Shown piece by piece: positions 30,503 through 63,636 of a stretch of 64,000 bases of DNA. This DNA comes from Halorubrum depositum (lineage in GTDB: Archaea > Halobacteriota > Halobacteria > Halobacteriales > Haloferacaceae), in NCBI RefSeq assembly GCF_007671725.1, contig NZ_VCNM01000004.1:1-64000 (forward strand), given 5' to 3'. Position 1 is the stretch's first letter, and each line of letters opens with the position of its first letter. Below the pieces are notes generated by a model, which saw only the letters and a list, made by a program, of their open reading frames with translations, had not been told where the DNA came from and did not search any database. The translations under genes were made by a program, and so were the position numbers.

Positions 30503-30545
30503 CTTAACCAACATCCCGTAGCAAGCGTGGGTTTTGTTGGTTAAG
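30503..30545. promoter_or_regulatory. Dispersed inverted repeat P1 (TTAACCAACA element), upstream of polB2
   Basis: Arms CTTAACCAACA (30503-30513) and TGTTGGTTAAG (30535-30545) with a 21-base spacer. It lies 185 bp before the PolB2 start. Probable operator; one of six copies. Confidence 0.75.
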
Positions 30546-35238: not shown

Positions 35239-35279
35239 TTAACCAACACGGCCCACGAATCCATAGTTTTGTTGGTTAA
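35239..35279. promoter_or_regulatory. Dispersed inverted repeat P2 (TTAACCAACA element)
   Basis: TTAACCAACA (35239-35248), 21-base spacer, TGTTGGTTAA (35270-35279). It sits 14 bp upstream of the DUF6788-type start. Confidence 0.75.
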
Positions 35280-37936: not shown

Positions 37937-37968
37937 GCGCCTCCGCCCCTCGGCGGGCGCTGAAAAAC
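37937..37968 (-). promoter_or_regulatory. Hairpin leader H1, before the SWIM gene
   Basis: On the minus strand a T-run (AGTTTTTC) is followed by GCGCC, a loop with GAGGGGCG and GGCGC. Start codon 17 bases further. Confidence 0.55.
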
Positions 37969-38010
37969 TTAACCAACAGAACGGAAGGAATCCATCACTC
38001 TGTTGGTTAA
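37969..38010. promoter_or_regulatory. Dispersed inverted repeat P3 (TTAACCAACA element)
   Basis: TTAACCAACA (37969-37978), 22-base spacer, TGTTGGTTAA (38001-38010). The right arm also supplies the TAA stop of the ArdC-like gene, and the left arm abuts hairpin H1. Confidence 0.75.
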
Positions 38011-38954
38011 CTATGTTGGGACGAGGAGTCTCCTTCGAGCACGTCGATGAGCTCTTCTGCTGTAGAACTGATCCGTCCGAGCCGCTCGCGAACGACCTCG
38101 GGATCGTCCGACTCCCACGCAGCGAGGTAGAACGCCGACCCGCTAGTGTCCAACCCACAGTACCGCCCGACGACATATGCGACGGCTTCGGCCTCGACCT
38201 CGCGTTTCGCCCGCTCGGTGTCGTCGTCGACGTCGAAGTGGAGCAGAGCGTGGGCGTACTCGTGAATTAGCGTCCGCGCGAGGTCGGCCTCGTTCTCCCG
38301 ATCACGCACCTCGACGAGCGGCTGAACGTCGACGAGGCTCAGCTGCTCGCAGATGCCCTTTGCCTCGCCGTGGGTCCACTCCTCGGCTGGAACGATCTGC
38401 ACCGTCACGCCGAGGTCGTCAGCGGCGCCAGTCAACTGTTCGACGAGGTCGCCGGCGTCGCCGGTCGCTTCCGTGTCCAGGTCGGGAAGCGGCTCGCCCT
38501 CGGTCTGGGAGATGTCGAACACCGGTGCGGGTTTGAACCCGACCAGGCCCTCGGACCACTCCTCGGGCGGCGTCTCGTCGTACTCACAATCACTGTCCTC
38601 GTGGTAGCTCGGCGAATTCTCGCACTCCGGGCACTGCTTGGTGATGATCGGCGCCCAGATCCAGATGGCCGACTCACCCTCCTTGACGTGGCGGTCGAAC
38701 TCCTCCTGCCACGTCCGGTAGCCCGCCACCCGGCTCGCCTCGGGACACTGCCGCTTGATGAGGAGCGTGTTCCGGTAGGAGTAGTCGTGGAAGCGACTCT
38801 GGACGTCGAGCCACTCTTGGAACTCCACGCTGGCCTGCGCGTTGTCGACGCCGGCGACGAGGTCGTCGATCCACTGTTCGATGGTACTGTTCATCTCGTC
38901 GGATCGTGTGTCGGTCTGGTCGAAGGAGACCGACGAGTCTCTGATCGTGGACAT
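38007..38954 (-). CDS. ArdC/M78-type protein with zinc peptidase motif
   Basis: 315 residues from ATG 38954. The front part (QWIDDLVAGVDNAQASVEFQ, then YSYRNTLLIKRQCPEASRVA and GYRTW) is the ArdC N-terminal single-stranded-DNA-binding domain. A CPECENS zinc-like insert follows, and the C-terminal half has LIHEYAHALLHF (about 232-243), the HExxH metal site of M78/ImmA-like peptidases, with AEAVAYVVGRYCG as the third ligand region. ArdC proteins protect incoming plasmid DNA from host restriction during conjugation; the same is inferred here. Leader hairpin H2 precedes it. Confidence 0.75.
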   Translation of the reverse strand: MSTIRDSSVSFDQTDTRSDEMNSTIEQWIDDLVAGVDNAQASVEFQEWLDVQSRFHDYSYRNTLLIKRQCPEASRVAGYRTWQEEFDRHVKEGESAIWIWAPIITKQCPECENSPSYHEDSDCEYDETPPEEWSEGLVGFKPAPVFDISQTEGEPLPDLDTEATGDAGDLVEQLTGAADDLGVTVQIVPAEEWTHGEAKGICEQLSLVDVQPLVEVRDRENEADLARTLIHEYAHALLHFDVDDDTERAKREVEAEAVAYVVGRYCGLDTSGSAFYLAAWESDDPEVVRERLGRISSTAEELIDVLEGDSSSQHS

Positions 38955-38997
38955 CGTGTTCACCGAATCAAGTTCACGGCGACTGCGTCTGTTCAGA

Positions 38998-39030
38998 CCG
39001 CGCCGCACCCCTCAGGGGCGTTCAAAAAAC
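38998..39030 (-). promoter_or_regulatory. Hairpin leader H2, before the ArdC-like gene
   Basis: Minus strand: GTTTTTTGAACGCCCC, loop TGAGGGGTGC, GGCGCG. Start codon about 43 bases downstream. Confidence 0.55.
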
Positions 39031-39041
39031 CGCTCTGTCGG

Positions 39042-39389
39042 TCAGCGGAGCTCGTGGCGTTCGTCCGCAAAGCCGACCGTGACGAGGTACTCGAGGAACT
39101 CGTCGAACCGCTCGACGTCACTGGGCGTGTCGGTCGCAAGATGACGCGCCCACTCGATGGCCCACTGGAAGGCGGGATCCGTGCCGCCCTTGCCGTGAAT
39201 GTACCACCACCGGGCCGCCTTGAGAACCACTATGGGATTCGTCGGCGGCTGCTCACCGGCGAGCCCACGGGTGATGGACTCGATTTCGTCGGGGACATCG
39301 GCGGAATCGACCTCCGCTGATTGCGTGTTGTCGATGTCGACCGGGATCTCGTCGATCGAGACGTTGTCAGGACGCTGTTGTTGACTCAC
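39042..39389 (-). CDS. Hypothetical protein upstream of the ArdC-like gene
   Basis: 115 residues. The N-terminal 40 are disordered and acidic; the remainder is compact and helical, with NPIVVLKAARWWYIHGKGGT and AIEWARHLATDTPSDVERFD. No family recognised. Its stop lies 87 bp before the start of the ArdC-like gene, with leader H2 in the gap. A role in plasmid transfer is only a guess from position. Confidence 0.55.
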   Translation of the reverse strand: MSQQQRPDNVSIDEIPVDIDNTQSAEVDSADVPDEIESITRGLAGEQPPTNPIVVLKAARWWYIHGKGGTDPAFQWAIEWARHLATDTPSDVERFDEFLEYLVTVGFADERHELR

Positions 39390-39449: not shown

Positions 39450-39528
39450 AGGTCGCGAAGTCACGCCGGCGGGAGGTAGACGCTCTGCTCGCCGGCAGAC
39501 TATCGTGCTGAACGTGGAACTTCGCTTG

Positions 39529-40746
39529 TTAGTCAACCACTGGTTGGACTGGAAGCCGTTCGAGGCGGCGGTGGCACGGGATACAGAGAGTCAACAGGTT
39601 ACTCGGTACATCTGCATCGTCGACCGACCGGTCTGGGTCGTTGTAGAACCGGCGTCGAGGGATCCTATGATGAACCGGGAGATCACGTCCGAATTTATCG
39701 CGGTGAGCTTCGCGGCCCATACCGCAGCGCAGACAGGATTCATTGTCACGGGTAATGATTTCCTCACGAATCTGTGGCCAGTTCGAGCCGAACGGTACTG
39801 TCTCGGTATTTGACTGGCGGTAGTCGTCTAAATAGTCTGGATCGGCCGCCTGTAGGGCTGTTCGCCATGATCCGAATACGCGCCGATACGGCTGGGTCGT
39901 GAATTCCCCGTGTTTAATCATCTCACCCGTTGTCGGCGGATGACCCAACTCTTCGGCGAGCTCTCGCAATTCGGTCAATAAACCCTCACGTGGAATTCGC
40001 CACCGGGTATTTGGCTCGAAGCCAGCGGCTGTAAGCGCCTCGTTCCAAGAACCGAACCGCTTCTGGTAGACCGATCCGCTCCATTTTCCCTGGTCCTGCA
40101 TCTCCTCTTTGCGCGGAATGTGTCCCAACTCTTCGCTGAGTCTCTTGAGTTCAGACAGCAGAGTGTCTTCACTCACGTTTCGTGTATAGTTTATTTCTAA
40201 GCCAGCCCTCTGAAGAGCCTGATTCCAATTTCCGAAGGCCCGTTTGTACGGATCCGAGGTGTACGGACCATCTTGATCCATCTCGTCTGTCGTGGGTGGG
40301 CGGCCAAGTTCCTCAGCGAACTCCTGTAGAGCAGCAATAAGTGCTTCTTCGGAGAGATTCAGTTCAACGTTGGGCTCCAACCCAGCTGCCCGTAGAGCTG
40401 AGTTCCACCCGCCGAATCGCTTGCAGTACGTTTTCACCGAGTACTTCCCGTAACTTCTGTAGGTTCGCTCTGAAGGTGCCTCTCCTACGATTTCAGCGAC
40501 TGATTTGAGGTCCACAAGAAGATCGGCTTTCGGTGTCGCTGGTCTTCCGTTTGGTTCGTTTGTTCCCGTCTCAAGGTCGGCAGTCTTGAGCGCTTCATTC
40601 CACGACCCGAAACGGTCCGCGTAGGTCTTTGCGGCATGAGTGCCGGACTCGTTCATCTCATTCTGCGACGGGGGCCGCCCGAGTTCCGACGCGAATTCCC
40701 GGAGACGATTGAGGAGTTCTTCGTCTGAGTACAGCTTCTTGCCCAT
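39529..40746 (-). CDS. Five homing-endonuclease-associated repeats plus HNH nuclease
   Basis: 405 residues from ATG 40746 (MGKKLYSDEELLNRLREFAS). Five ~55-residue repeats follow, each with an LLxxLRELAEELGxPP part and an FGSWNEALxAAGLE ending (about 5-60, 70-125, 132-190, 190-245, 248-303), a module known from homing endonucleases and from HNH proteins. The C-terminus has CLRCGMG, VHHRIPRRRF and NLLTLCIPCHRRLE, a zinc-stapled HNH active site. Five modules could read a long DNA site. This may be a free-standing homing or restriction nuclease. The gene is headed by P4 and hairpin H4. Confidence 0.75.
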   Translation of the reverse strand: MGKKLYSDEELLNRLREFASELGRPPSQNEMNESGTHAAKTYADRFGSWNEALKTADLETGTNEPNGRPATPKADLLVDLKSVAEIVGEAPSERTYRSYGKYSVKTYCKRFGGWNSALRAAGLEPNVELNLSEEALIAALQEFAEELGRPPTTDEMDQDGPYTSDPYKRAFGNWNQALQRAGLEINYTRNVSEDTLLSELKRLSEELGHIPRKEEMQDQGKWSGSVYQKRFGSWNEALTAAGFEPNTRWRIPREGLLTELRELAEELGHPPTTGEMIKHGEFTTQPYRRVFGSWRTALQAADPDYLDDYRQSNTETVPFGSNWPQIREEIITRDNESCLRCGMGREAHRDKFGRDLPVHHRIPRRRFYNDPDRSVDDADVPSNLLTLCIPCHRRLERLPVQPVVD

Positions 40747-40873
40747 GATTTGTGATGTGATTGAATCACTCAGTTTGGTCCCGGCTTGGTATTTGAATGT
40801 CAGTTCTCGTGTTTGTGAGTCGTTACCTGTTGATGCTGACTGAGCTTCTATTCGATCCCGCGAGGCCGCTGCT

Positions 40874-40909
40874 GGCTGCCTCGCACCCATCGAGGGGGCC
40901 GAAAAACTG
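40874..40909 (-). promoter_or_regulatory. Hairpin leader H4, upstream of the HNH gene
   Basis: Minus strand: AGTTTTTCGGCCCCC, loop TCGATGGGTGC, GAGGCAGCC. It is about 127 bases before the chosen start, the longest distance in the set; the true start may be nearer. Confidence 0.45.
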
Positions 40910-40921
40910 AGGCACACCCTG

Positions 40922-40963
40922 TTAACCAACAATGGGGAAACCCACGTGGAGTGTGTTGGTTAA
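40922..40963. promoter_or_regulatory. Dispersed inverted repeat P4 (TTAACCAACA element)
   Basis: TTAACCAACA (40922-40931), 22-base spacer, TGTTGGTTAA (40954-40963), just upstream of H4. Confidence 0.75.
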
Positions 40964-40972
40964 GGATAGAGC

Positions 40973-41188
40973 TTACTCTTCGCCCTCACGTAGCTCTTCA
41001 GCCTTCCACTTGAGCCGGCGCAGGATCTGCGTTCGATTCTGGTTGGCGTTCTCGTAGGCAACACACTCTTGGAGGGTTTCCATATCCGGAATCGTCGCGA
41101 TTCCTGCCTTGATCAGGCGCGTGTTCGATGCTTCAAGCCGCTTCTCTGGCGAGAATTCGTTACTCTCTTGCTCGTCAGTGGACCCCAT
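40973..41188 (-). CDS. Small plasmid protein, paralogue of the gene at 52097
   Basis: 71 residues from ATG 41188. RLEASNTRLIKAGIATIPDM followed by ETLQECVAYENANQNRTQIL forms two helices ending in RRLKWKAEELREGEE. The gene at 52097-52318 is a clear paralogue (ETLRACVAYENANQQRVQIL). The family is common in haloarchaeal plasmids, but I know no function; the helical pair could bind nucleic acid. Leader H5 precedes it by 6 bp. Confidence 0.65.
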   Translation of the reverse strand: MGSTDEQESNEFSPEKRLEASNTRLIKAGIATIPDMETLQECVAYENANQNRTQILRRLKWKAEELREGEE

Positions 41189-41194
41189 CTCAAA

Positions 41195-49641: not shown

Positions 49642-49682
49642 TTAACCAACACTGACCTCGATCGCCGGAACTAGTTGGTTAA
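49642..49682. promoter_or_regulatory. Dispersed inverted repeat P5 (TTAACCAACA element)
   Basis: TTAACCAACA (49642-49651), 21-base spacer, AGTTGGTTAA (49673-49682, one mismatch). Confidence 0.7.
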
Positions 49683-52096: not shown

Positions 52097-52318
52097 TCAA
52101 TCGTCTTGTGCGCGGATTTCGCTGGCCCGCTGTTCAAGCCGGCGGAGGATTTGGACCCGTTGCTGATTCGCGTTCTCGTAGGCGACGCAGGCTCGCAGCG
52201 TCTCCATATCGTTGATCGTCACGATACCAGCGTTGATGAGTCGCGTATTCGATGGCTCGAGCCGTTGTTCTGGCGAAAGCTCGCCTTCGTCTGTTGTTTG
52301 ACCGTCTGGATTGCTCAC
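52097..52318 (-). CDS. Small plasmid protein, paralogue of the gene at 40973
   Basis: 73 residues from GTG 52318, which follows hairpin H9 by 6 bp. RLEPSNTRLINAGIVTINDM followed by ETLRACVAYENANQQRVQIL RRLEQRASE gives the same two-helix fold as its paralogue; only the tails differ. Two copies on one replicon suggest duplication of an operon. Confidence 0.65.
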   Translation of the reverse strand: MSNPDGQTTDEGELSPEQRLEPSNTRLINAGIVTINDMETLRACVAYENANQQRVQILRRLEQRASEIRAQDD

Positions 52319-63595: not shown

Positions 63596-63636
63596 TTAAC
63601 CAACAACTCCGAGCCGACACCAGGATTGTTGGTTAA
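63596..63636. promoter_or_regulatory. Dispersed inverted repeat P6 (TTAACCAACA element)
   Basis: TTAACCAACA (63596-63605), 21-base spacer, TGTTGGTTAA (63627-63636), about 56 bp from hairpin H14 and 13 bp after the end of the partial gene. Confidence 0.75.

Follow-up and report, generated by a model that had tools for sequence, protein, structure and literature searches.

A five-unit HNH_repeat endonuclease gene in an exchangeable slot of haloarchaeal plasmids: a candidate free-standing homing-type endonuclease

The stretch of Halorubrum depositum DNA analyzed here (64,000 nucleotides, referred to as the window), which sits on a 127.7-kb contig, carries a gene for a protein with five tandem HNH_repeat units followed by an HNH nuclease domain (Table 1). 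On balance, we favor the view that it encodes a free-standing HNH homing-type endonuclease of haloarchaeal plasmids, which would read DNA through a tandem array of helix-turn-helix (HTH) units and spread, driven by repair, over a resident DUF6610 gene. The repeat is a known Pfam family; the new aspects are the joining of an HNH nuclease to a predicted reader of five HTH units and its mobility as one of the alleles found in a slot of archaeal plasmids.

Table 1. Features of the nuclease gene, its upstream region and the surrounding plasmid slot (window positions).
Feature	Position	Strand	Remarks
Gene for 405-aa five-unit HNH_repeat HNH endonuclease	39529-40746	-	
HNH_repeat unit 1	40570-40731	-	85.2 bits
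HNH_repeat unit 2	40375-40533	-	64.9 bits
HNH_repeat unit 3	40195-40353	-	82.7 bits
HNH_repeat unit 4	40015-40173	-	81 bits; modelled alone
HNH_repeat unit 5	39841-39996	-	73.6 bits
HNH nuclease domain, residues 338-395	39562-39735	-	CxxC, HH, N, CxxCH residues
Segment present where sister plasmids have the DUF6610 ORF	39497-40858	-	
3' remnant of displaced DUF6610 gene	39461-39496	-	12 codons including the stop (AGEQSVYLPPA*)
Slot flank: conserved 73-aa ORF	40973-41194	-	
Slot flank: conserved 115-aa ORF	39042-39389	-	
Slot flank: ArdC-like gene	38007-39008	-	Anti-restriction ArdC N-terminal domain and peptidase-like domain
Palindrome TTAACCAACA-N22-TGTTGGTTAA, taken as P4	40922-40963		Plasmid-wide, slot-owned
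Leader hairpin region	about 40859-40906	-	Next after palindrome; shared with DUF6610-type slots
36-bp promoter block GACATTCAAATACCAAGCCGGGACCAAACTGAGTGA, TATA-like TTCAAATA	40766-40801	-	Travels with the gene

Protein architecture and distribution

The original prediction described five modules preceding a complete HNH site, and both parts of this description held. The whole 405-aa protein matched the Pfam family HNH_repeat (PF18780, homing endonuclease associated repeat) with 357.9 bits (E=2.6e-109), all five units scored well above the cut-off of 26 bits (64.9-85.2), and their spacing, measured at the FGxW anchor, was 65, 60, 60 and 60 residues. As in other members of the family, the HNH domain is C-terminal. 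Its signature was complete (C338-x2-C341, H359-H360, N383 and C388-x2-C391-H392) and invariant in 11 aligned proteins; HNH residues with flanking CxxC pairs, as found here, define the HNH nuclease superfamily. The Pfam HNH model scored 20.5 bits on the nuclease C-terminus, slightly below its cut-off of 21.4, and the HNH part matched the PHROG HNH family phrog_8446 (E=1.4e-16). The gene product is probably a DNA-cutting enzyme. No relative was found among solved structures searched by sequence, the HNH domain was poorly modelled in structure prediction, and a fold search with the whole protein was dismissed as meaningless (model pTM 0.28).

The nuclease is the sole HNH_repeat gene of the genome (five contigs). 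Full-length orthologs, 75-100% identical, were detected in 22 of 391 sampled haloarchaeal genomes, representing 16 genera, and broken copies of the gene were found in G146, G316 and L172, a patchy distribution with broken copies of the kind that characterizes homing-type genes. No close relative was found on viral contigs, and phage records yielded distant partial matches only. The 19 distinct orthologs that were aligned all had 405 residues and five units, with zero indels. In comparisons of up to 166 ortholog pairs, the whole gene had a median dN/dS of 0.14 and the HNH part one of 0.085, values that indicate purifying selection on the nuclease gene.

The expectation that most proteins with this module carry fewer units was borne out by a census of 197 genomes of the phylum, in which 47 array genes were counted by clustering matches and unit counts vary with the score threshold: 39 of the 47 had fewer than five units (one unit in 13 genes, two in 16, three in 5, four in 5, five in 6, six in 1 and eight in 1). 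Thus, the five units found here contrast with one to three in most array genes; arrays of 6-10 units also exist among the relatives that were fetched.

The plasmid slot and the exchange with DUF6610

The flanks of the gene matched 87-102 plasmid records, most of which have a DUF6610 gene at the intervening position. The slot thus has alternative occupants, and here the nuclease gene has taken the place that DUF6610 holds in many related plasmids. Junctions were compared with 14 sister slots, either of DUF6610 type (13) or empty (L149). In all 13 DUF6610-type slots homology stopped and resumed within 2 bp of positions 40859 and 39496, while the empty slot differed from this junction pattern; directly downstream of the nuclease segment, the 3' end of the former DUF6610 gene persists. 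Among Halorubrum slots, 14 contained DUF6610 (one broken), 4 the nuclease gene, 1 neither and 2 other content, so that the same conserved neighbours enclose the nuclease gene in some plasmids and lack it in others, a presence/absence pattern typical of free-standing homing endonucleases. In two of the four nuclease slots (L138 and L142), a PAS-type histidine kinase gene (domain read by eye) was located upstream of the nuclease gene, between it and the slot palindrome. In most other slot carriers the gene shared 78-82% DNA identity with the one studied here, compared to mostly 92-97% for the downstream flanks; the nuclease gene being more diverged than these flanks, the slot has a history of its own.

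This combination of sharp replacement, patchy spread, broken copies, purifying selection and greater divergence in the gene than in the flanks downstream of it is the reason why the homing-type reading is favored, and gene-for-gene replacement would be the expected behavior of a selfish "homing" endonuclease. In the proposed mechanism, the five tandem HTH units would bind along the DNA and position the single C-terminal HNH domain, which would cut or nick a site in plasmids carrying another slot allele. Recombinational repair through the conserved flanks (the 73-aa ORF on one side, the 115-aa ORF and ardC on the other) would then overwrite the resident DUF6610 gene with a copy of the nuclease gene. 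A target site for the nuclease was looked for and not found. DUF6610 genes were present in 12 of the 22 genomes with the nuclease and in 16 of 28 without it, and one genome (G343) holds a slot-type DUF6610 plasmid alongside its nuclease plasmid; therefore, elimination of the DUF6610 ORF does not appear to be reliable, and its exclusion was not supported as a sign of cutting.

Sharp slot replacement could also come from ordinary recombination between plasmids. An ordinary plasmid gene, passively exchanged by homologous recombination through shared flanks, would have junctions that simply mark the ends of homology; the flanks are indeed highly similar across plasmids, and a whole region has moved unchanged between Halorubrum and Natrinema (L090). 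However, passive exchange leaves unexplained why a nuclease fused to a predicted DNA-reading array is kept under purifying selection, and we consider it very unlikely. The content of the slot bears on a different alternative, according to which the gene is a plasmid-borne exclusion or defence nuclease whose array recognizes competing plasmids or viruses for destruction by the HNH domain, with the ardC-side slot acting as a cargo site and no homing involved. In line with this, the slot adjoins an ArdC-like anti-restriction gene, its cargo varies (DUF6610, the nuclease, or in two cases the nuclease with the upstream histidine kinase gene) and the HNH part is weakly similar to ZorE effectors. On the other hand, PADLOC matches were marginal (best E 0.0037), the common form of the locus has no co-travelling partner, modification or immunity gene, and broken copies together with gene-for-gene replacement better suit a selfish gene, which makes a defence function unlikely.

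Part of the 73-aa slot ORF is duplicated 11 kb away, as a 147-bp repeat (41013-41159 and 52137-52283) with 74% identity.

Upstream region of the nuclease gene

The original prediction credited the gene with "P4", a label left unexplained that we equate here with the palindrome preceding it, and with a leader hairpin. Both elements are present; however, they are also found in the DUF6610-type slots of other plasmids, and therefore belong to the slot and not to the gene. The palindrome has 10-bp arms (TTAACCAACA-N21/22-TGTTGGTTAA) and occurs in the window at 30504-30544, 35239-35279, 37969-38010, 40922-40963, 49642-49682 and 63596-63636, one copy having one mismatch. Nine copies were counted genome-wide, eight on the 127.7-kb contig and one on contig C1 (at 381257), and it was also found in many sister plasmids; it might be an operator or a partition site. 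A leader of the form TTTTTCG-CCCC-N-GGGG-TGnGAGG recurs on the minus strand at 37966, 39448, 40906 and 51638, preceding several same-strand genes, in some cases directly after the palindrome, and looks like a shared regulatory leader.

What does travel with the gene is the 36-bp block GACATTCAAATACCAAGCCGGGACCAAACTGAGTGA, which stands 19 bp before the ATG and is conserved with or without an adjacent P4. Its mean pairwise identity was 0.923, a value matched by only 1% of coding-sequence windows of equal length. Since the gene has its own promoter block, conserved in several contexts, a promoter-less insertion relying on P4 and the leader was rejected. The block is a candidate autoregulatory operator of the nuclease; as a precedent, the I-TevI endonuclease represses its own promoter (PMC2988022). 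Conservation of the stretch that separates the TATA-like box from the start codon would also fit a DNA-binding regulator, in which the array serves as a repressor and the HNH domain is either inactive or of secondary importance, as would the predicted HTH-like nature of the units and the nuclease-free arrays that are common among relatives. Nevertheless, every HNH residue is invariant and dN/dS of the HNH part lies below that of the array, so that such a regulatory role seems quite improbable.

Two further candidates were discarded. A 34-bp stretch of the promoter (40777-40810) that resembles one inside the gene (39794-39827) was rejected as a binding site, as the coding copy is not motif-conserved in orthologs. 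The 16-mer GGGACCAAACTGAGTG was rejected as a probe for other targets, because 20 of its 21 matches in 382 genomes were the nuclease gene or its remnants; the one exception, in L174, looks like chance, and the match in L163 lies at a contig end.

Predicted fold and variable surface of the repeat

An AlphaFold2 model of a single HNH_repeat unit, built on a 35-row alignment of units, showed four helices with a mean pLDDT of 84. The top Foldseek matches were DsrC chains and TetR-family N-terminal domains (query TM-score 0.59-0.71), the TetR N-terminal HTH domains reaching TM values of 0.59-0.68 with E-values that were not significant. The DsrC chain 2xsj_C, to which HNH_repeat had been matched in a structure-prediction survey (PMC8078820), recurred among them. 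As Foldseek E-values were above 0.5, the assignment of the unit as a four-helix, TetR-like HTH is suggestive only; in the model, H2-turn-H3 would be the HTH and H3 the recognition helix.

The five units are approximately 36-48% identical to each other. The original prediction held that the number of modules could encode a long recognition site, as in programmable arrays, and named identical surface residues as the outcome that would count against it. This was not the case, since the predicted recognition helices differ across the five units (HAAKTYADRF, YSVKTYCKRF, YTSDPYKRAF, WSGSVYQKRF and FTTQPYRRVF) and the variable positions lie on the predicted DNA-facing surface. Alignment of the modules combined with prediction of DNA contacts, the check it had suggested, clustered the variable residues on that surface: in a set of 168 non-redundant units taken from all loci and many proteins, the eight most variable positions (-3, -17, -18, -6, -7, -10, -14 and -2, counted from the F of FGxW) fell without exception within the predicted H2-turn-H3. 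Exposed HTH positions, picked by hand from the helix prediction, averaged 3.38 bits, compared to 2.74 and 2.71 for helices H1 and H4, respectively (permutation p=0.0002). Within orthologs the hypervariable positions were mostly unit-specific, though -7 and -6 drift. This unit-to-unit variation fits a predicted DNA-reading surface, and it is possible that the array reads DNA along a one-unit-one-word code.

A broader proposal is that every TetR-like HTH unit recognizes one short DNA word by means of its H2/turn/H3 hypervariable positions, the arrays constituting a natural modular scaffold that haloarchaea couple, in numbers of 1-10 units, to HNH nucleases, to T7-endonuclease-I-like nucleases and possibly to recombinases; we regard it as doubtful at present. 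If the array did read DNA unit by unit, it would represent a compact scaffold for DNA binding, of haloarchaeal origin, in which the number and order of units would predict the target site and permit redesign. Such reading is directly testable, because orthologs of 75-100% identity and alternative slot alleles exist. No experimental study of HNH_repeat was found in the literature searched, where one paper (PMC8078820) names the repeat.

Comparison with known systems

The endonucleases of I-HmuI/I-HmuII type, encoded in Bacillus phage introns, combine an HNH catalytic domain with DNA-binding modules. The nuclease described here likewise consists of an HNH domain and predicted DNA-binding modules, but it is not associated with an intron: no Rfam match was present in the window, and the gene stands by itself with a start, a stop and a promoter block of its own, which sets it apart from the intron- or intein-encoded class. 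Nicking by I-HmuI/I-HmuII-type enzymes is cited in PMC2988022. According to the same source, free-standing T4 endonucleases sit between genes conserved in related phages and spread via flanking homology, and several of their genes are promoter-less cassettes. The free-standing HNH homing endonucleases of T-even phages (MobA and MobE) and intronless homing of SegF type share with the present case a self-contained gene flanked by conserved ones, alleles with and without that gene, and an HNH nuclease with a separate, here predicted, DNA-binding part. Unlike them, the present gene resides on an archaeal plasmid, has a predicted tandem HTH array and its own promoter, and encodes a putative nuclease.

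With TALE and other programmable arrays, the protein has in common tandem units whose variability is concentrated on DNA-facing positions (here predicted ones). In contrast to the near-identical TALE repeats and their code of one unit to base(s), the units are whole HTH domains of 36-48% identity, without a known base code.

No described case of intronless homing on archaeal plasmids was found in the literature searched. The slot would offer a natural system for it, at a plasmid position where the nuclease displaces a widespread DUF6610 gene beside an anti-restriction gene.

Other arrays and their partner domains

Related arrays ended in HNH (L059, L076 and L085) or in other domains, one was found near a helix-hairpin-helix (L071) and some lacked any recognized partner; given this variety of partners, the module looks like a general DNA-binding part. 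The array of L083 ends in a T7-endonuclease-I-like domain (phrog_29037 "endonuclease", E=5e-13; Holliday-resolvase family, 2.8e-7). In both L083 (1205-2971) and L062, seven HNH_repeat units lie between a C2H2-like N-terminus and a T7-endonuclease-I-like PD-(D/E)XK C-terminus, so that this kind of array appears to be joined to a second type of nuclease as well. In L072 (737-2941) and L074 (891-3008, minus strand), 8-9 units precede a C-terminal domain with recombinase-like motifs, which is possibly tyrosine-recombinase-like; as Pfam support is weak (15.2 bits to Phage_integrase for L074, under the cut-off), this is taken as a lead only. Finally, residues 7-78 of P0001, within the repeat, matched TIGR04096, a DNA-phosphorothioation-associated putative methyltransferase, weakly (26.1 bits, far under the cut-off).
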